A stretch of 64,000 nucleotides of DNA. Origin: Flavobacterium zepuense. Its GTDB lineage: Bacteria > Bacteroidota > Bacteroidia > Flavobacteriales > Flavobacteriaceae. The stretch spans positions 1 to 64,000 of the forward strand of contig NZ_VJVZ01000010.1 in the NCBI RefSeq assembly GCF_007097145.1. Reading direction: 5' to 3'. The notes under the pieces are model-generated. The model searched no databases. It was given only the letters and a program-made list of their open reading frames with translations, and was not told the origin of the DNA. Positions 51,351 to 59,910 of this stretch are shown in pieces (the first letter of the stretch is position 1; every line of letters starts with the position of its first letter). A program made the position numbers and the translations under genes.

Positions 51351-52622
51351 TTAAATAATTTTCTTTCTAAAATAGACCGCCAAAACTAAAAAATAACAAG
51401 CATAAGTAATGGCATGTGCCATAACAGCGCCTTCTGCCCCGTATTGTGGAATAAGCAAATGGCTGGATGTGTATAAAATGGTAAACGAAAGCACTTCGGA
51501 TACTATGTAAGCTCTGGTCATTTTTTTTGCAAAAAATTCAAAGCCCAGTATAAGCGAGCACACTTTAAAAAAATCGCCCGTAAGTTGCCATAAAAATAAG
51601 GTTTCCATAGGCAGGAAATCTTTAGCGAACAGCACTTTTATTATCACTACACGTAAAAAGTACACCAACACAAGCCCCCCTGCAAATACAGGAACCATGA
51701 TTTTATAGTAGCTCCTAATTACACCCTTAGTATCATCATTGCTAACTGCCGACGAGAGTTTTGGTAAAAAATAGACGGTGAGCATGGTTGAGGCAAACAT
51801 TAGGTAAAAACCCGCTATACGGTTTACCGCTTCATAAAAGCCTGCATCGTCAGCGCTATAGCGCTCAATAATAAAATTACGTATGCCTATGTATACCACC
51901 GATCCTAATACCGCCGAAAGCAACATCATAACACTGTATGATAAGAGCCCTTTTAGTATGCTTTTATTAAAATAACGCATCTTTACAAATGTAAAACCGG
52001 GAAAAAGGCGATGTATTTGATATACCGAAAAGAAGAACAATATAGATGGATATGCAATGAGGCCGATTAATGCACCTGTTAACCCAAGTTGCCATATCAA
52101 TATACTTGTAGAAGCCACACCGGCAATATTACCCCAAATATTAAGGTAAATAACACGCTTAAAATTACCCAGCCCGTTTAAAATTGCCATAAAAACAAGA
52201 TTGCCCGCATATAAAGGCAGCGTAACTGCTAATGTTCTTATAGCCCATGTATAATCTATAGATCCAAACACTTTGGTACTCCAATAACCCGCAGGTATAA
52301 ATAAGACAAGCATTATAACACCCAGAGTAGTAAGTATAGTTATAAAGGTAGTGGCAAGTACGTTATTAAGTTTATCGGAATTCTTCTCATTTTCTGCCGT
52401 GTACTTAATAATACCGTTTTGCATACCAAGCGTACAAAACGCATCTAAAGATGTCATCATGCTACGCAGATTACCCGTTACGGCCATACCCGCAGGACCA
52501 ATAAAAAGGGCAATCATTTTAGATCCTACAAGCCCGCCTGCCACCCTAACCAATATGCTTAGCGTATTAAGGGATGACAGCCGAAAAAGCTGGCTTTTAA
52601 CTATGTTCTTTATAAAATCCAA
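51351..52622 (-). CDS. Wzx-type O-antigen flippase (MATE/MOP superfamily)
   Basis: 423 residues with about twelve membrane segments and a TTG start at 52622; in-frame ATG codons lie too far inside to keep the first helix. 'SLNTLSILVRVAGGLVGSKMIALFIGPAGMAVTGNLR' is the familiar Bacteroidetes flippase start, ending with 'HAITYACYFLVLAVYFRKK'. It flips lipid-linked oligosaccharide units to the periplasm for surface polysaccharide assembly. No Wzy polymerase is obvious nearby. Confidence 0.88.
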   Translation of the reverse strand: MDFIKNIVKSQLFRLSSLNTLSILVRVAGGLVGSKMIALFIGPAGMAVTGNLRSMMTSLDAFCTLGMQNGIIKYTAENEKNSDKLNNVLATTFITILTTLGVIMLVLFIPAGYWSTKVFGSIDYTWAIRTLAVTLPLYAGNLVFMAILNGLGNFKRVIYLNIWGNIAGVASTSILIWQLGLTGALIGLIAYPSILFFFSVYQIHRLFPGFTFVKMRYFNKSILKGLLSYSVMMLLSAVLGSVVYIGIRNFIIERYSADDAGFYEAVNRIAGFYLMFASTMLTVYFLPKLSSAVSNDDTKGVIRSYYKIMVPVFAGGLVLVYFLRVVIIKVLFAKDFLPMETLFLWQLTGDFFKVCSLILGFEFFAKKMTRAYIVSEVLSFTILYTSSHLLIPQYGAEGAVMAHAITYACYFLVLAVYFRKKII

Positions 52623-52645: not shown

Positions 52646-53617
52646 TTAGACAAGAACATTATCTAAAAGTATATAGTTAACGGTTTGTACTTCATAAAAG
52701 TCCTGGACCATGGTTCGGGCGCCAAAACTTTCTTTCCAAAAAGCAAGGCCATTGTTAAGCTTACGGCCTTGCTCTTCATTAGAAATTCCAAAGTCGAAAT
52801 ATTTTTTATTGGCGTAATGCTCTGTTACAAGGTAATGGTATAAAAAATCAAGGCTGCCGGTAAGGCCTTTATCATCTCCTGCCGATATGTATTGGGCGTG
52901 GGCAACCGTTTCGGTCTCAAAAATAACCGTCCCGGCAGCAATATGTCCATTGTTATTTACAATAAACAGTTTAATATTATCAGGAAAGCGGGCTGCGAGT
53001 TTGGTTATCTCTTCTGCCGAATGCACCGGAGCAGCACCATGCCTGTTTTGTAGGTTCGGAATTAAGACCTGCTGCCAAAAAGCCTCAAAATCGTGTGACT
53101 GTATTACTGTAAAGCCGTTTGCTATGCCTTTTTTTACGCCTTCCATACGGTTAGCGGCAATTTTTATAGGTAACGAATTATCTATCACGGCAAGGGAATC
53201 CCTGCGGGTAAGTTTAGCATTTGCTAAAAAAAGGGCATACTCCATCTCCTGGGCGGGTTGTAAATGATAAACTACAGGTATGGTTTTGATGTTGAGTGTC
53301 ACGACACCCTCTGCATCTAAATACTGCAATACTGCTTTAAACACTTCTAAAACAGCAGATAGCTTTATTTTTTGATTGAGGATTAATCCGCCATAGGTTA
53401 GCCCCTTGTGCGAAAAAACTGTATTTCCTACCCTGTTGGCAGGTAACTGGGCAACTATTTTTTGACCCTCAAATACCAGCAACGAAAAATCGGTAAAGCG
53501 GTCGCTATGATATTCCATAAAGTCCCTATGAAATAAAAATGTGCCGTTTTTAGACCGGCTTACAAAATTATTCCACTCATTGTAATAAGAAACACTATAG
53601 CGTTCAATTGTATACAT
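52646..53617 (-). CDS. FemAB/GNAT-like acyltransferase
   Basis: 323 residues. Two GNAT-like halves: N-terminal 'YYNEWNNFVSRSKNGTFLFHRDFMEYH' and C-terminal 'GHIAAGTVIFETETVAHAQYISAGDDKGLTGSLDFLYHYLVTEHYANKKYFDFGISNEEQGRKLNNGLAFWKESFG', which match FemAB-like proteins of glycan loci (the 'G...A.Y...S.....R...G...L....I..A...G...FDFG' pattern). Such enzymes transfer an amino acid or acyl group to a glycan or sugar amine. Follows the sulfatase-fold gene by 18 bases in the same operon. Donor unknown. Confidence 0.8.
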   Translation of the reverse strand: MYTIERYSVSYYNEWNNFVSRSKNGTFLFHRDFMEYHSDRFTDFSLLVFEGQKIVAQLPANRVGNTVFSHKGLTYGGLILNQKIKLSAVLEVFKAVLQYLDAEGVVTLNIKTIPVVYHLQPAQEMEYALFLANAKLTRRDSLAVIDNSLPIKIAANRMEGVKKGIANGFTVIQSHDFEAFWQQVLIPNLQNRHGAAPVHSAEEITKLAARFPDNIKLFIVNNNGHIAAGTVIFETETVAHAQYISAGDDKGLTGSLDFLYHYLVTEHYANKKYFDFGISNEEQGRKLNNGLAFWKESFGARTMVQDFYEVQTVNYILLDNVLV

Positions 53618-53635: not shown

Positions 53636-55108
53636 TTACTTTACAGCCTCTATAACAGGCTCTCCCTTATCATTAATATATTTATAAACCCCGGCTGGCC
53701 TTAAAGTTCTCATATAACTCTCATCTTTTTGATAATTATTAAGATAGGCTTTATCCTGAGAAAGAAAAGAAAATACGGTCCTAAAGAGGTTTACCGATGA
53801 TTTTAAGTCAGCATCGTATTCTTTATAAGCAGGGTTATTCCACTTTATGGCCAGCATAGCCCCATACATAGATTTGATAAGCCTGGTATCTTTTAAAACA
53901 TTCTCTGTTTGTCCCAAATATTTAAAACCGGCAAACCCGCCATGATCGGCGCCAATAATTACAATAGCATTGGGGTCTTGCAGGGTAATAAAATTTATTG
54001 TGGCGGTTAGCCACTCATTAGCTTCGCCAATACGCCTTATATACGAATCCCTCTCCCCTTTAATACTCCTGGACGACGGATTATTAGATATATGCCCGGG
54101 TGTCATTTTCTCAACAAAGTAAAAATTACCAGATTTTCCGTTCTGTGCAACTTTAGCTTTTAGATCTTCCAAAACATTACGTTCCGCATCCCATCCATCC
54201 ATAAAATACGGCAGTTTACTATAGTCAAAATTACAGTAATCATAACCCATTGCAGGCCTGTTAATTATAAGGTAAGGCCGCTCTGTTATAAAATGTGTTT
54301 TATAACCGTTACTTTTTAACGTAGTAAGTACAGGGTTTTTGCTAATAATTACACTACGTGCGTTATAAGGATCCATATCCGGCTGGCTGTAATGGTGCTG
54401 CATAGCAAACAGAGACGAATTAGAAAGCAGTGTAGAATAGTAATTAGACCTAAAGCTGTTGTATACTTTAAAATCTGTTTTTTTTAGATATGTTTCAAAA
54501 GCGGTATTGTTAAAGGTATACTGCTCGCTCTTAAGATTGTCCGGATTGGTATAGCCATCGGGCTGAATGTAATAAATATTTGGCCTTTGCTTAAAGGCAG
54601 CTTTCTCTATCTCATCGGGCAGTTTGTGCCATGCTGTGGGGGCAGTTTGTGTCATAACAACAATACCCGCCAGCGTATATAAATTAAATACCGATAAAAA
54701 TAAAAGCAGCAACACCAGTAGCTTATAGTATTTTTTAACTGAAAAAGCTGCACCAATACTTAGCAGAACAACGCCTGCCAGCACTATTTTTTTAGATAGG
54801 GGTACACTTATTATCTGAACAATATAAAAACCTAAAAACATAACCATGCCACCCATAAGGATGTTTCTTTGCAACGGCTTAAGCTTTACAAGGGCTGCCA
54901 GCTTATAAGCCACAAACAATGTTAACGCAGGTATAAGCGCATAATAGCCTATTAAAAAAAGCAATTGCGGCCATGAATTTGCAAGACTGTAGTTTTGGGC
55001 ATAATAAAATAAGACCATATAAACACCAATGCTAAAGCCCGCCAGTAACGGCACATCTTTTGGCGAATTTATAAAGTGCATTATCCTTTGCCTTAGCCTT
55101 TCTATCAT
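53636..55108 (-). CDS. Sulfatase-fold (alkaline phosphatase superfamily) membrane protein
   Basis: 490 residues: five membrane segments in the first ~155 residues, then an extracytoplasmic alkaline-phosphatase-superfamily domain. 'NIYYIQPDGYTNPD' has metal-binding D184. 'YYSTLLSNSSLFAMQHHY' could hold the Ser/Thr nucleophile. 'EKMTPGHISNNP' and 'VIIGADHGGFAG' (about residues 386-398) give the Asp/His metal pair. The topology is that of LTA synthase/phosphoethanolamine transferase-type enzymes that move phospho-groups onto surface polymers. Substrate unknown. Encoded 3 bases after the kinase-like/methyltransferase gene, in a shared operon. Confidence 0.83.
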   Translation of the reverse strand: MIERLRQRIMHFINSPKDVPLLAGFSIGVYMVLFYYAQNYSLANSWPQLLFLIGYYALIPALTLFVAYKLAALVKLKPLQRNILMGGMVMFLGFYIVQIISVPLSKKIVLAGVVLLSIGAAFSVKKYYKLLVLLLLFLSVFNLYTLAGIVVMTQTAPTAWHKLPDEIEKAAFKQRPNIYYIQPDGYTNPDNLKSEQYTFNNTAFETYLKKTDFKVYNSFRSNYYSTLLSNSSLFAMQHHYSQPDMDPYNARSVIISKNPVLTTLKSNGYKTHFITERPYLIINRPAMGYDYCNFDYSKLPYFMDGWDAERNVLEDLKAKVAQNGKSGNFYFVEKMTPGHISNNPSSRSIKGERDSYIRRIGEANEWLTATINFITLQDPNAIVIIGADHGGFAGFKYLGQTENVLKDTRLIKSMYGAMLAIKWNNPAYKEYDADLKSSVNLFRTVFSFLSQDKAYLNNYQKDESYMRTLRPAGVYKYINDKGEPVIEAVK

Positions 55109-55111
55109 GGT

Positions 55112-56494
55112 TTACTTTCTTTTTAGCAAGTACAGGGTACGGTGAGTATTAGGTATCTTTTCTTTTTCTATAACAGTATAAAAGTCTGAATAGTCTCTCT
55201 CAAAATTGTCACGGTTATAGTAGTCAAAGTATCCGGCAAATTCGCGTTTGCTTTTTAGCAGAAAACTAACCCAGGAGTCTTCCCTGTCGGGGAACTCTAT
55301 AATAAGGTATGGCGTTAGCGAAGCAAACATTTGTGCCGACATTGCAAACGGTACATTGCCCGATAATGATATGTGGTGTATTAGCGCCAGCGCCAGTGCA
55401 ACATCAAAACTATTATTGGCAATACGCTCCTGCAATGGTGCGCGCTCCTTATTATTAAAGCCAATGCCGGGTGCAGGATTAAGCAAATCGCTAACCAGCG
55501 GCAGTATGTTGTGCTCTTTGTTTTTAAGTACCTGTTTGTAGTTGTAATCAACCGCGTTAGGGTCTATATCGGTAACCAGTATTTCTTTGGCGCTATCTTT
55601 TAAAACGCGCGAAAATGTGCCATCATTACCTCCCAGGTCTACCACCTTTTGTGCGTTAATTGTACCCGACCATTTTTTTACCAGTTGCTTTTTATGCTCA
55701 AAGGCAGCGTCATCATAATTGGTAATGGCGTAGTAGTCTTTCCACTCGGTTTTTTCGTTAAGGGTAAGGTCTTTTATAAAATTGTAAAGTGAGTCGATAA
55801 TTTTTATCTGGCTCTCTTTGGGCACATTTACCTTTTTCTCGGTAGTATTTTCGTCGCTGCTGTATTTAGCATCATACTTTGCCGTTAAAAATATATTGGT
55901 GTACACCGTTGGGCTAAAACGTGCCGAAAACGGCAACAGCTTTGCCACTTTTTGCAACGGCATGCCATCTATGTATTGTTGCAGTGTTTTAAGCATATCG
56001 TTGCCATAATATTTGGCAAGTAATAATGGCCCAAAAAAGTGCATTAGGAACTGCTTATATGCCCTCCAGGGTTCGCCGGGGGTGTAGGCATCAAACGACA
56101 GGGTATCTACAAATACAGGTGCCCCGTTATGAAATGTAATATTAAAAGCCGTGGCATCCTTAAGGGTATAATCGTGTTGCAGGCAGTACTTTTGTAATTT
56201 TAGGGTATGGAGCGCGGCGTGCTTGTATTGCGTAAAACTCCACTCGTAAGGGTAAGAAAAAAACGGTATATTTTCCGGCTTTATCTGTATGTGGCTTTCG
56301 GTTGCCGCAACCTCTTCGTGCTTAATTAAAAGGCCGCTATCAAAAAGCTTTTTGTAAAAGCCGCTGTTGGTTAACGATTGGTACTGGCTAAAATAAACAG
56401 GGTTAATTATCCTGTATAACTGCCCGTCGTTAACCTGTATATAACCCGATGGGTCACGAAAAGACGATGCATGCCTATTTGTTGTCTCCGCCAT
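55112..56494 (-). CDS. Kinase-like N-terminal domain fused to SAM methyltransferase
   Basis: 460 residues. Residues about 1-240 form a conserved but uncharacterised domain ('FRDPSGYIQVNDGQLYRIINPVYF', 'SYPYEWSFTQYKHAALHTLKLQKYCL'). In it 'LKDATAFNITF' (D113-x4-N118) and 'VFVDTLSF' (D130) look like the catalytic loop and metal Asp of kinase/APH folds. Residues about 270-400 are a class I methyltransferase: motif I 'KVVDLGGNDGTF', acidic residue 'LVTDIDPNAV', and 'FDVALALALIHHIS'. A fused kinase-like and methyltransferase pair recalls WbdD, which caps O-antigen chains, but with the order reversed. Overlaps the small membrane protein gene by 20 bases. Confidence 0.8.
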   Translation of the reverse strand: MAETTNRHASSFRDPSGYIQVNDGQLYRIINPVYFSQYQSLTNSGFYKKLFDSGLLIKHEEVAATESHIQIKPENIPFFSYPYEWSFTQYKHAALHTLKLQKYCLQHDYTLKDATAFNITFHNGAPVFVDTLSFDAYTPGEPWRAYKQFLMHFFGPLLLAKYYGNDMLKTLQQYIDGMPLQKVAKLLPFSARFSPTVYTNIFLTAKYDAKYSSDENTTEKKVNVPKESQIKIIDSLYNFIKDLTLNEKTEWKDYYAITNYDDAAFEHKKQLVKKWSGTINAQKVVDLGGNDGTFSRVLKDSAKEILVTDIDPNAVDYNYKQVLKNKEHNILPLVSDLLNPAPGIGFNNKERAPLQERIANNSFDVALALALIHHISLSGNVPFAMSAQMFASLTPYLIIEFPDREDSWVSFLLKSKREFAGYFDYYNRDNFERDYSDFYTVIEKEKIPNTHRTLYLLKRK

Positions 56495-56675
56495 CTGTTT
56501 TATCTTCTATATCAATGTTGCCCATCAGGTCCTGCTCTTCTTTTTTTCCAAACATAGATTTTACCTTTGTAGTGATCTTTTTATAGAATAAAGCTACCGA
56601 TGCTGCTCCTGCTACAACCAGCTGCACAATAAGTGCCCCTGTACCCGGATCGAAATATAAAAACGGAAGTTTCAT
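56475..56675 (-). CDS. 66-residue membrane protein with DPGTG motif
   Basis: One membrane helix: 'FDPGTGALIVQLVVAGAASVALFYKKI' after a short start, then a charged tail. I recall small proteins with a DPGTG motif recurring beside methyltransferases of the downstream type and sulfatase-fold membrane proteins, function unknown. The 3' end overlaps the start of the methyltransferase gene by 20 bases, and no other gene is upstream on this strand, so it heads the operon (56675 down to 49022). Real rather than spurious because of the motif and coupling. Confidence 0.7.
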   Translation of the reverse strand: MKLPFLYFDPGTGALIVQLVVAGAASVALFYKKITTKVKSMFGKKEEQDLMGNIDIEDKTDGGDNK

Positions 56676-56820: not shown

Positions 56821-59800
56821 GTGAAACAAAAATTACAATGCCTTACCTTACTGCTATTTTGTTGCTTTGCAGCGCACAGCCAGATAGATGTTACCTTATA
56901 TGAGCAGTTTAACGGTAAGTACGATTTTACTTTTGTAGGCAATACCTTAAACACTATAGGCAACAATGGTACTACCACGCCCTGCGAAATACTAACCTCA
57001 TCATCGGCTACTTTAAATTTAGATCCTGATGAAACCCTTATAAAGGCCTATATGTACTGGGCCGGTAGCGGTACCGGCGATTTTAACGTTACCCTTAACG
57101 GAAATGCTATTGCTGCCGAGCGTACTTTTAACGTACAGGCCAGTAATACCGATGGCAACACGCGCCCCTATTTTAGCGCTTTTGCCGATGTTACATCCAT
57201 ACTGCAAACTACAGGGAACGGAACCTATACTCTTGCCGACCTTGACCTTACCGACCTTATAAACGATGATGTTCCTAACGAAGAAAACCTGTATTGCCAG
57301 ATAGCCACTAACTTTGGCGGATGGGCTATAATTGTGGTATACGAAAAACCTTCGCTGCCGCTAAACCAGCTAAATTTATATGATGGGCTACAGTTTGTGC
57401 CTTCGTTTATAAACATTACACTGCCCAGCCTTAATGTGGTAGATAATTTAGGGGCGAAAATAGGGTTTTTAGCATGGGAAGGCGATGCTGTTATTCAGGT
57501 TAATGAAAGCCTTACCATTAATGGGTCGGTGCTTAGTAATACGTTAAACCCTGCGAATAATGCTTTTAACGGTACCAATACCGAGACGGGTTCTAACCAA
57601 CTGTATAACATGGATGTGGATGTATACGACATTCAGAATTTCATTCAGGTGGGCGATGACACCGCCGAGATACAGCTTACATCGGGGCAGGATTTTGTAA
57701 TGATTAATGCCATAATGACCAAGCTTAACAGCCAGTTGCCCGATGCTACCATTGTGCTTGATGAAATTACCAAGATATGCAGCCAAAACCTGGTAACGGT
57801 TGATTATACGGTATATAACGTTAACAGTACCGATGTACTGCCTGCCCACACCCCTATTGCCATTTACCTTAATGGAGACCTGATAGGCACTACCGAAACA
57901 GTTAACGAAATTGCCATTGGCGGTAACGAGCCGGGCACCATTACCCTAACCATGCCTGCTGGTATTACCGGCGATGCACAGCTGCTTTTTGTGGTTGATG
58001 ATACCGGCAACGGAACCGGCACTGTTATAGAAACCAACGAAAACAACAACAATGCTTTAGAGAATATAACGCTTTGGCAATTGCCGGAACTGGAACCGGC
58101 AGATATTACCATTTGCGAAACAACCAATGGGTCTAACGTTGGGTTGTTTGATTTTTCAGACTATGAGCAAACCCTTGCCAACAATCCCGGCGATGTGGTT
58201 ACGTTTCACACTTCTTTAGTGGATGCACAAAGTGGCGATAATGACATTCAAACACCCGAAAGTTTTCTCTCTACCTCTAACCCCCAGGAAATTTTTGTGC
58301 GCCTTTGGGATGAGAACGGCTGCCTTGGTATAGGCTCGTTCCTGCTTATTGCCAAAGATTGTAATTTCCCAGATGGTGTTGTTGCAGCATCTAACCTTAT
58401 ACAAGCCTGCGATTCGCGCCAAATAACGGTTACCTACACGGTTAGCAACCCCAATAGTTTTGATATACTGCCTAACAACACCCCGGTCGCTATTTATGCG
58501 AATACTACCCTGCTTACGGTTGTACCTACAGCGTCAGACATTGCTATTAACGGCAGCCTTAACAATACGGTTTCCTTAACAATCCCAAACAATATCCCAC
58601 TTAGCTTTAACCTTATGTTTGTGGTAGATGATAACGGCACAGGTACAGGTATTATAGAAGAAACTAACGAGACTAACAACAGCTTTACCCTTCCGGTAAC
58701 GTTGTGGGTATCGCCCATACTACAGCAACCGGCCGATGTTACCGCCTGCGAAACCTTTAACGGGTCGGGTATTGGGGTGTTTGATTTTTCGGGCTACCTG
58801 CAATCCCTAAAAGTTAATGATACTGATATAATTACATTTCATGAAACACAGGCCGATGTCGATAGTGGCACTAATGATATTACGGAGCCTAATGCTTACA
58901 GTTCTGCCACGGCCCACCAGATATTTGTAAGGCTGGAAGATGAAAACGGCTGCTATGATACCGCCATATTTACGCTCGTTATAATCGATTGTTTCTTCCC
59001 CGATGCTACCGTGGTTGTAGAAGAGGTTTACAAGCAATGTAACTCGCGCATCATTCACGTACACTATACAGTAAGTAACTTTAACGGAACCGATGTACTG
59101 CCTGCTGCAACCCCCTTGAGCATTTATGTTAACGGTCAGTTTTTAGACTATACCGAAACCCTGGAGGATATTGCCATTGGCGAAAGCGAAAGCAACTACA
59201 TAACCCTTACAATACCTATAGGCATTCCGCTGGATTTTAACCTGACCTTTGTTGCCGATGATACCGGAGACGGTACGGGCATTGTGATAGAGCTTGATGA
59301 AACTAATAATGCGAACACGCTGCCTACAAGCCTTGTGCTGTCGCCCGAAATTGCCCAGCCTGCTGATATTGAGGGTTGCGATGCCGGTTTTGGCTTAGGG
59401 AAGTTTGATTTTTCGAGCTATGCGGAGTCGCTTAAAAACTATCCTAACGAGACGGTTACTTTTTACGAAACGCAGCAAAATGCCGACCAAGCGCTTAATC
59501 AAATTTACAACACCACCAGTTATGCCATAACTACAAATCCGCAGCGCATTTATGTAAGGCTGGATAACGGCACCTGCCATACCACGGCATCGTTCCTGCT
59601 GTACACTAAAAAGTGTGCCCCTACGCCTTACAACTATGTTACACCTAACGGCGACGGCATCAACGACGGCTTTTTTGTAGATGGCCTGCGCAACATTTTC
59701 CTCAACTTTAAAATGAGCATTTACAACCGCTGGGGCACCCTGATATGGACGGGCGACCATAGCAAGGCCGACTGGAACGGTATTGCCGATGTAGAGAAAG

Positions 59801-59910
59801 TGGGATCTGAAGGCACAACAGTACCTGCCGGCACTTACTACTTTGTTTTGGAACTTAACGACGCTGATTATCCACAGCCTATTGTAGGATGGGTGTATGT
59901 GACTAAATAA
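56821..59910 (+). CDS. Type IX secreted repeat protein with type B (gliding-motility) C-terminal domain
   Basis: 1029 residues with a GTG start and Sec signal (about 1-20, 'FAAHSQ'). Residues about 25-300 form a beta-rich N-terminal domain. Then three tandem ~210-residue repeats, starting near residues 307, 516 and 726, each with a CARDB-like half ('VDYTVYNVNSTDVLPAHTPIAIYLNG', 'FVVDDTGNGTG') and a half with 'CET.NGS..G.FDFS.Y'. The C-terminus (about 940-1029), 'TPNGDGINDGFFVDGLRNIF', 'IYNRWGTLIW', 'PAGTYYFVLELND', is the T9SS type B sorting domain. A surface adhesin or matrix protein is likely. The repeats probably arose by duplication. Confidence 0.93.
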   Translation: MKQKLQCLTLLLFCCFAAHSQIDVTLYEQFNGKYDFTFVGNTLNTIGNNGTTTPCEILTSSSATLNLDPDETLIKAYMYWAGSGTGDFNVTLNGNAIAAERTFNVQASNTDGNTRPYFSAFADVTSILQTTGNGTYTLADLDLTDLINDDVPNEENLYCQIATNFGGWAIIVVYEKPSLPLNQLNLYDGLQFVPSFINITLPSLNVVDNLGAKIGFLAWEGDAVIQVNESLTINGSVLSNTLNPANNAFNGTNTETGSNQLYNMDVDVYDIQNFIQVGDDTAEIQLTSGQDFVMINAIMTKLNSQLPDATIVLDEITKICSQNLVTVDYTVYNVNSTDVLPAHTPIAIYLNGDLIGTTETVNEIAIGGNEPGTITLTMPAGITGDAQLLFVVDDTGNGTGTVIETNENNNNALENITLWQLPELEPADITICETTNGSNVGLFDFSDYEQTLANNPGDVVTFHTSLVDAQSGDNDIQTPESFLSTSNPQEIFVRLWDENGCLGIGSFLLIAKDCNFPDGVVAASNLIQACDSRQITVTYTVSNPNSFDILPNNTPVAIYANTTLLTVVPTASDIAINGSLNNTVSLTIPNNIPLSFNLMFVVDDNGTGTGIIEETNETNNSFTLPVTLWVSPILQQPADVTACETFNGSGIGVFDFSGYLQSLKVNDTDIITFHETQADVDSGTNDITEPNAYSSATAHQIFVRLEDENGCYDTAIFTLVIIDCFFPDATVVVEEVYKQCNSRIIHVHYTVSNFNGTDVLPAATPLSIYVNGQFLDYTETLEDIAIGESESNYITLTIPIGIPLDFNLTFVADDTGDGTGIVIELDETNNANTLPTSLVLSPEIAQPADIEGCDAGFGLGKFDFSSYAESLKNYPNETVTFYETQQNADQALNQIYNTTSYAITTNPQRIYVRLDNGTCHTTASFLLYTKKCAPTPYNYVTPNGDGINDGFFVDGLRNIFLNFKMSIYNRWGTLIWTGDHSKADWNGIADVEKVGSEGTTVPAGTYYFVLELNDADYPQPIVGWVYVTK

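Follow-up and report, generated by a model that had tools for sequence, protein, structure and literature searches.

Three coupled genes at the head of a glycan operon

The DNA analysed here is a stretch of 64,000 nucleotides from Flavobacterium zepuense (contig NZ_VJVZ01000010.1, positions 1 to 64,000), to which we refer as the window. On its minus strand lie three adjacent genes that encode, in the order of transcription, a small protein with a Tyr-x-Asp-Pro-Gly-Thr-Gly motif (the DPGTG microprotein), a two-domain enzyme, and a membrane protein of the alkaline-phosphatase superfamily (Table 1). A check of the open reading frames (ORFs) agrees in every particular with an earlier note made from the sequence alone: the three genes have the positions and strand given there, the first two overlap by 20 bases (56475-56494), and the second and third are separated by a 3-base gap (55109-55111). 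The whole genome (41 contigs, 4.76 Mb) yields one match each to the second gene and to the microprotein, and no second copy of either was found in it.

By homology over both of its domains, the second gene is assigned to the NoeA/Lani_1194 family of kinase-methyltransferases. When 72,556 plasmid records were searched by tblastn, relatives of this gene turned up in 65 (57 Sinorhizobium, 3 Rhizobium, 1 Ensifer, and 4 others); each covers at least 80% of the gene, and several among the matches listed are annotated noeA. NoeA of Ensifer canadensis aligns with residues 2-459 of 460 at 31% identity (E 8e-47). The third gene is placed, likewise by sequence, in the same family as Sinorhizobium meliloti NoeB, which is found at E 2e-48 by a profile iterated from the window protein. 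S. meliloti strain ml47 has nodL, the gene for a 71-residue hypothetical protein, noeA, and noeB, in this order. In the hypothetical protein, YLDPGTGS precedes a hydrophobic stretch and a basic tail; its gene overlaps noeA by 23 bases, and noeB starts 6 bases after noeA. Since both enzymes have homologues there and the microprotein accompanies them, the window trio corresponds to microprotein-NoeA-NoeB. The microprotein itself was found in 61 plasmid records (57 Sinorhizobium, 3 Rhizobium, and 1 Ensifer). We note that in S. medicae ml29 (L209, 6125-8900) noeB is split over two frames near codon 95, and that the microprotein and noeA are annotated whole in the same strain.

The trio is thus real, widespread, and already partly described, and the statement of the earlier note that it knew of no described function has to be withdrawn for the second and third genes. 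The kinase-methyltransferase family was described in 2022 as Lani_1194, with NoeA as a homologue and NoeB as an alkaline-phosphatase-fold protein; in the available text of that paper, 94% of about 2000 homologues are fused, and the neighbours Lani_1193 and Lani_1195 are conserved in 65% and 38%, respectively, of 816 neighbourhoods (PMC9758233). A strain that does not form nodules on 17 of 27 Medicago truncatula genotypes was reported to have a truncated noeA (PMC4053727, as far as its text was available). The accessible parts of the literature on nodL, noeA, and noeB do not name the small gene, and a full-text search for DPGTG returned only papers that are unrelated by title. As far as these literature searches show, three features are new: the near-universal microprotein, the WbdD-like residues of NoeA, and the second company that the microprotein keeps, with sulfate-transfer genes.

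Table 1 Genes of the trio and the adjoining operon genes in the window
Feature	Position	Strand	Description
DPGTG microprotein gene	56475..56675	-	66 residues: short N-terminus, Y-x-D-P-G-T-G motif, one hydrophobic stretch, Lys-rich tail
NoeA homologue gene	55112..56494	-	460 residues; kinase-like (about 1-245), class I methyltransferase (about 247-460)
NoeB homologue gene	53636..55108	-	490 residues; N-terminal membrane-length helices, C-terminal alkaline-phosphatase-superfamily domain
FemAB/GNAT-like acyltransferase, next operon gene	52646..53617	-	PF13480 above cut-off
Wzx-type flippase	51351..52622	-	PF01943, PF13440

The microprotein accompanies NoeA across phyla

Loci for comparison came from a contig scan, in which the best 80 of at least 580 NoeA relatives were examined (64 mostly from Flavobacteriaceae, L018-L081, and 16 others, L082-L097); the nearest named relatives among these best 80 are from Flavobacterium. 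In all 80 loci, the microprotein is encoded on the same strand as NoeA and no more than 3 kilobases (kb) away, and it lies upstream in 78; NoeA has a NoeB-type neighbour in 71. Of the 64 loci L018-L081, 22 have two to four genes of the NoeB type, many in tandem, an arrangement that looks like a diversification of acceptors or donors. The microprotein and NoeB profiles were grown on the same 80 loci, which had been picked by closeness to the query, and genome samples from three phyla serve as a second test.

Among 296 genomes of Bacteroidota, a NoeA with both domains occurs in 10 and the microprotein in eight, all of them among those 10 and within 1.7 kb of NoeA; in one of the two remaining genomes, a weak copy (E 1e-4) overlaps with the beginning of NoeA. 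In 12 of 22 genomes the match was confined to the methyltransferase half (best E 6e-7 to 8e-4), and these were left out of the NoeA count. Chloroflexota (151 genomes) have NoeA in 19, a count that includes one fragmentary match with a stop (G412), and the microprotein in 20, adjoining NoeA in 19 of 19. For Pseudomonadota (369 genomes) the numbers are nine and 16, with the microprotein within 2 kb of NoeA in nine of nine, the order microprotein-NoeB-NoeA in three of the nine, and a NoeB-type or sulfatase-fold gene beside NoeA in eight. Altogether, the microprotein accompanies NoeA in 36 of the 38 NoeA-bearing genomes, and Fisher's exact test gives p values for the co-occurrence of 3e-14, 3e-23, and 4e-14 in the three samples, uncorrected for relatedness of the genomes. 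The earlier note had mentioned the same trio elsewhere and had set the absence of a recurrent neighbourhood as the finding that would speak against it; the neighbourhood does recur, in the 80 loci and in the three phylum samples.

Three residues of NoeA match the phosphate-methylating site of WbdD

The AlphaFold model of the NoeA homologue has a predicted local distance difference test (pLDDT) score of 93.1. In the N-terminal part, the spacing of conserved residues is that of a kinase-like domain, with R28 in an early strand, D113-x4-N118, and D130, each present in 128 of 128 sequences. These positions are equated with K72 (here replaced by Arg), D166, N171, and D184 by motif spacing as given in the available text of PMC9758233, and not by structural alignment. 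The sequences in this count are 400-650 residues long (first set) or 430-650 residues long with E below 1e-50 (second set). Both Foldseek and VIA-align identify the C-terminal part as a class I methyltransferase. Kinases are absent from the VIA-align list of fold matches, which is uninformative, as methyltransferase matches filled that list.

When a profile of the methyltransferase domain was searched against the sequences of the PDB, WbdD took ranks 1-4 with 25.2-24.6 bits (E 1.2e-4 to 1.8e-4), and the next entry scored 22.8. In the profile alignment to WbdD of Escherichia coli HS (708 residues, of which 1-211 were used), H373 and H374 of NoeA pair with H132 and H133 of WbdD, and R452 pairs with R203. 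The end points of the structural alignment, in which residue 460 of the model falls on residue 211 of WbdD, agree with the R452-R203 pairing if the last strand is ungapped. Both histidines are invariant (128 of 128 each), and so is the arginine in the 126 sequences that reach it, the remaining two being cut off by the end of the locus. In WbdD, the available text of the structural study reports that H132, H133, and R203 cluster round the methyl group, that the H132A, H133A, and R203A mutants phosphorylate and no longer methylate, and that R203 is not shared by the related NodS and RebM (PMC3482155). As a control, 14 ordinary, methyltransferase-only ORFs of the Bacteroidota sample were aligned in the same way; WbdD has His, His, and Arg at all three columns, and none of the 14 does. 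The control left out two matches longer than 400 residues, one of which is a NoeA. An additional residue, Y254, is invariant in the 128 NoeA sequences and is a candidate counterpart, by position only, of Y16 of WbdD. From this residue match, NoeA may phosphorylate its substrate and then methylate the phosphate, and we take phosphate methylation to be the most likely candidate for its chemistry.

NoeB retains the nucleophile and metal positions of its fold

The AlphaFold model of the NoeB homologue (pLDDT 94.1) has membrane-length helices before an alkaline-phosphatase-fold domain. The closest fold matches are YejM/PbgA (Z 22.5, 3.5 Å over 281 residues), EptC (Z 20.7), sulfatases (about 20), and LtaS (19.1). 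In an alignment of 61 NoeB sequences, position 184 is Asp or Glu in all 61, the nucleophile column 226 is Thr in 53 and Ser in eight, D388 is present in all 61, H389 in 58 (Glu in the other three), and H339 in 53; S. meliloti NoeB carries all of these metal and nucleophile positions. By this conservation, NoeB keeps the catalytic Thr or Ser and most of the metal ligands of alkaline-phosphatase-fold transferases of the LtaS/EptA type, and the comparison of the third gene with lipoteichoic acid (LTA) synthase that the earlier note had drawn is borne out by fold and residues alike.

The Pfam model Sulfatase (PF00884) scores 21.1 bits against the window protein, for a cut-off of 25, and 40.9 bits against S. 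meliloti NoeB. Sulfatases that carry formylglycine have the motif C/S-x-P-x-R at the nucleophile. The identity of NoeB as a generic or formylglycine sulfatase was rejected, since its nucleophile is Thr in 53 and Ser in eight sequences and no Pro follows two places on in the window protein or in the majority; the lack of Cys at the nucleophile excludes a formylglycine sulfatase of the Cys type.

A small membrane protein with a conserved tyrosine

Among 132 distinct microproteins, the motif Tyr is present in all 132, Asp in 125, Pro in 128, the second Gly in 127, and Gln in 126, counts that have to be read with the fact that the motif locator weights these very letters, Tyr and Pro most. The 19-residue stretch after the motif is hydrophobic in 132 of 132. 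The 16-residue segment beginning 24 residues after the Tyr contains at least three Lys or Arg in 131, the six residues before the Tyr are free of Lys and Arg in 108, and A-x-A stands directly before the Tyr in 29, where it resembles a signal-peptidase site. Membrane topology generally follows the positive-inside rule; with this charge pattern, the rule would place the motif outside and the tail inside.

The nonsynonymous divergence (dN) of the gene lies below its synonymous divergence (dS): dN is 0.20 and dS 1.08 between the window and Flavobacterium beibuense (L019), 0.02 and 0.20 between F. beibuense and F. rakeshii (L020), and 0.066 and 0.219 between S. meliloti and Rhizobium sp. T136. This purifying selection identifies the first gene as a real coding gene. 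Neither Pfam nor NCBIfam has a model that matches it at E up to 1 (window copy) or up to 0.01 (S. meliloti copy).

The microprotein also occurs apart from NoeA. In Pseudomonadota, seven of the 369 genomes have a microprotein match (E 1e-8 to 3e-4) and no NoeA at E 1e-20. In all seven (L199-L200 and L202-L206) a sulfotransferase-family gene lies within 1.5 kb of the microprotein, in five an arylsulfotransferase gene, and in one a sulfatase gene on the other strand; the assignment is by Pfam for two of the seven sulfotransferases and three of the five arylsulfotransferases, and by phmmer to one of those for the rest. The NoeA-less and NoeA-linked proteins share the core Tyr-x-(Asp/Gly)-Pro-x-x-Gly, and common descent of the Pseudomonadota NoeA-less copies with the family is likely, not certain, on their E values. 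A search of one order with an arylsulfotransferase-linked microprotein found two of 47 genomes, both already known. In Chloroflexota, a microprotein lies directly upstream of a PF01663 phosphodiesterase-family gene in G344, which lacks NoeA, and as a second copy in G380; in L178 and L180, Chloroflexota loci without NoeA, the microprotein directly upstream of the PF01663 gene has the sequence YIDPNTGG. A second copy in G417 precedes a weak alpha/beta-hydrolase match. The company of sulfotransferases and arylsulfotransferases suggests a wider role for the microprotein, as a small partner to envelope group-transfer enzymes in general.

Genomic surroundings

On the same strand, 3' of the trio, follow genes for an acyltransferase-like protein, a Wzx-type flippase, an MBOAT protein, and a DltD-like protein, and beyond these an FdtA-type isomerase and glycosyltransferase-like genes, the last label being a reading of the ORFs with no domain scan behind it. 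In 55 long loci, mostly from Flavobacteriaceae, relatives of the window flippase occur in 46, relatives of the FemAB-like gene in 49 (one of them, in L018, without a Pfam match at E up to 0.001), and a DegT-type aminotransferase near the trio in 42. The Wzx, FemAB-like, DegT-type, and FdtA neighbours point to an exported glycan with amino sugars, and the surface glycan that the earlier note had suggested as the target of the trio would fit this neighbourhood, as judged from gene content.

Just upstream of the module, a TypA/BipA-type gene is found in 46 of the 55 long loci (L021 and others of L018-L081), and a DAHP-synthase-family gene lies near the module in 44, which suggests a fixed chromosomal site in those genera. 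The window differs, in that a type IX secretion (T9SS) protein adjoins the module upstream instead of the TypA/BipA-type gene. This divergently encoded protein (56821-59910) has 1029 residues with CARDB repeats and a CHU_C type IX secretion domain; it was rejected as part of the module, a relative being present in only four of the 55 long loci. The Bacteroidetes -7 promoter motif was not found in the 145 bases upstream of the microprotein gene.

A phage origin of NoeA was rejected, as S. meliloti NoeA has no match at E 1e-5 in 50,697 phage records. Five IMG/VR contigs classed as viral (L098-L102) carry NoeA relatives, three of them together with the microprotein; these contigs may be host DNA.

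Discussion

We tentatively interpret the trio as a cell-envelope group-transfer module of the NoeA/NoeB kind that works stepwise, a reading which we regard as quite possible and to which we would not commit ourselves further. NoeA, in the cytoplasm, would phosphorylate its substrate, for which a lipid-linked sugar or some other envelope precursor is the most likely candidate, and would then methylate that phosphate, as WbdD does on the O9a O antigen of E. coli. Methylation would convert a phosphomonoester to a phosphodiester, the type of bond attacked by LtaS/EptA-like enzymes. NoeB, in the membrane with its catalytic domain outside, could then act on or transfer the (methyl)phosphate on a surface glycan via its Thr/Ser nucleophile. 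The microprotein would span the membrane, with the Tyr-Asp-Pro-Gly motif outside and the basic tail inside, and couple the inside enzyme to the outside one. It is best read as a membrane partner because the trio, like the sulfotransferase/arylsulfotransferase neighbourhoods, pairs it with one enzyme on the inside and one on the outside. Homology, conserved active sites, co-occurrence, and gene coupling are the observations on which the model is built, and we infer from them the activities, the order of steps, the glycan target, and the role and topology of the microprotein.

Several results weigh against this model. The kinase-like domain of NoeA finds nothing among PDB sequences (best E 0.76) and has no sequence similarity to the WbdD kinase (hhalign probability 0.1). 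The two-domain reading of the earlier note, kinase-like plus methyltransferase, holds up, although no independent sequence or fold match confirmed its first half; we call the N-terminal domain kinase-like on the motif spacing and on PMC9758233. In single-sequence searches of the PDB, the transfer RNA (tRNA) methyltransferase 2yx1 comes first and WbdD is missing from the list; WbdD ranks fourth by Foldseek and 48th by VIA-align, in the latter case in a near tie (Z 16.4 against 17.8 for the top match). The R452-R203 pairing needs permissive alignment settings, as the default settings stop before R203. Both histidines occur in two of the 14 control methyltransferases, and four, weakly aligned, show Arg in the third column. 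Ordinary methyltransferases reach hhalign probabilities of 87-97, compared with 96.6 for WbdD, so that the score proves only the methyltransferase fold. The proposal that WbdD is the overall closest relative of NoeA was dropped, since the overall score does not tell WbdD from ordinary methyltransferases, and the claim that we keep is that of the three residues. YejM/PbgA, the closest fold to NoeB, acts in the regulation of lipopolysaccharide (LPS). In Chloroflexota, a sulfatase-fold gene lies within 1.5 kb of the microprotein-NoeA pair in three of 19 genomes, in two of them on the other strand; weaker matches of membrane proteins to the NoeB profile (E 1e-3 to 1e-6) were dropped, those that were scanned having no Pfam sulfatase match. 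A 1995 study of noeA and noeB reportedly found the Nod factor unchanged.

Part of this evidence suits other explanations. NoeA alone might cap or terminate a glycan as WbdD does, with NoeB as a separate tailoring enzyme that adds phosphoethanolamine or phosphoglycerol to the same glycan and with the microprotein serving only to anchor NoeA. The WbdD-type residues would be accounted for equally by such capping, and the Chloroflexota pair, mostly without a sulfatase-fold neighbour, speaks for it; we nevertheless hold it to be doubtful, since NoeA has a NoeB-type neighbour in 71 of 80 loci and in eight of nine Pseudomonadota genomes, and since the window operon is of the Wzx type, compared with the ABC-transporter pathway of WbdD (PMC3482155, available text). 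That NoeB is a sensor or regulator like YejM/PbgA rather than a transferase, through which the trio would adjust envelope synthesis, is suggested by the top structural match (rank 1 by Foldseek, Z 22.5). This seems improbable to us, because EptC, sulfatases, and LtaS follow only 1.8 to 3.4 Z units lower, the nucleophile and metal positions are conserved, and YejM itself is called a metalloenzyme in the title of a 2020 paper (PMC7576196).

A modification of the Nod factor or of another secreted signal by NoeA and NoeB is about as improbable. It draws on the operon shared with nodL in rhizobia and was hypothesised in PMC9048898 and similarly in PMC9758233, as far as their texts are available. 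The trio or pair is, however, widespread in Flavobacteriaceae and Chloroflexota, and the window and many loci of Flavobacteriaceae place the trio with Wzx and other glycan genes. We know of no Nod factor made by these two groups. A role in Nod factor modification only is disfavoured by this distribution. The listing of the Legionella homologue as a putative effector kinase (PMC9758233, in the part available) would make NoeA a protein kinase or effector with incidental neighbours; the tight linkage to the microprotein (80 of 80 loci; 36 of 38 genomes) and the invariant methyltransferase site make this very unlikely. Within the group-transfer model, finally, the microprotein could be the carrier of the group itself, its Tyr being charged inside, by NoeA with phosphate and then methyl or by a sulfotransferase with sulfate, and discharged outside by a NoeB-type enzyme or an arylsulfotransferase. 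The idea arises from the Tyr in 132 of 132 microproteins and from linked enzymes of types known or plausible on aryl esters. We think it a long shot; if true, it would mean a shared, undescribed movement of phosphoryl and sulfuryl groups across the membrane on a tiny protein.

Host range in nodulation depends in part on noeA and noeB, two nodulation genes for which the available text of two 2022 papers continues to give the mode of action as a hypothesis or a possibility. With residues matched to a solved phosphate-methylating active site, NoeA acquires a concrete, testable candidate activity, and an open question of symbiosis becomes testable with it. Attention would move from the Nod factor to the cell surface, and the nodL-noeA-noeB operon gains a small gene that the accessible parts of the literature do not count in it.

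Comparison with known systems

The nodL-noeA-noeB operon of S. meliloti has full-length homologues of the window genes in the same order, microprotein included, at about 31% identity for NoeA and 15% for NoeB; the window copy differs in standing in a Flavobacterium-type glycan operon without nodL. The paper on the Lani_1194 family, in its available text, mentions WbdD only for another family and describes neither a DPGTG microprotein nor phosphate-methylating residues (PMC9758233). LtaS, EptA, EptC, and YejM/PbgA share with NoeB the membrane helices followed by an alkaline-phosphatase-fold domain, at about 10-15% identity over the aligned residues. MspA of Staphylococcus aureus is, like the microprotein, a small membrane protein, and it acts on the LTA-synthase pathway, where it is reported to affect mainly the signal peptidase that cuts LtaS (PMC11323550, available text); the two are likened by description, not by sequence. 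WbdD of E. coli O9a, like NoeA, combines a kinase and a methyltransferase in one chain, with H132, H133, and R203 matched in NoeA. The order in WbdD is methyltransferase-kinase-coiled coil, whereas that of NoeA is reversed and has no coiled coil, a further point against the model; given this reversed order NoeA should not be filed as a WbdD, although it may work like one.

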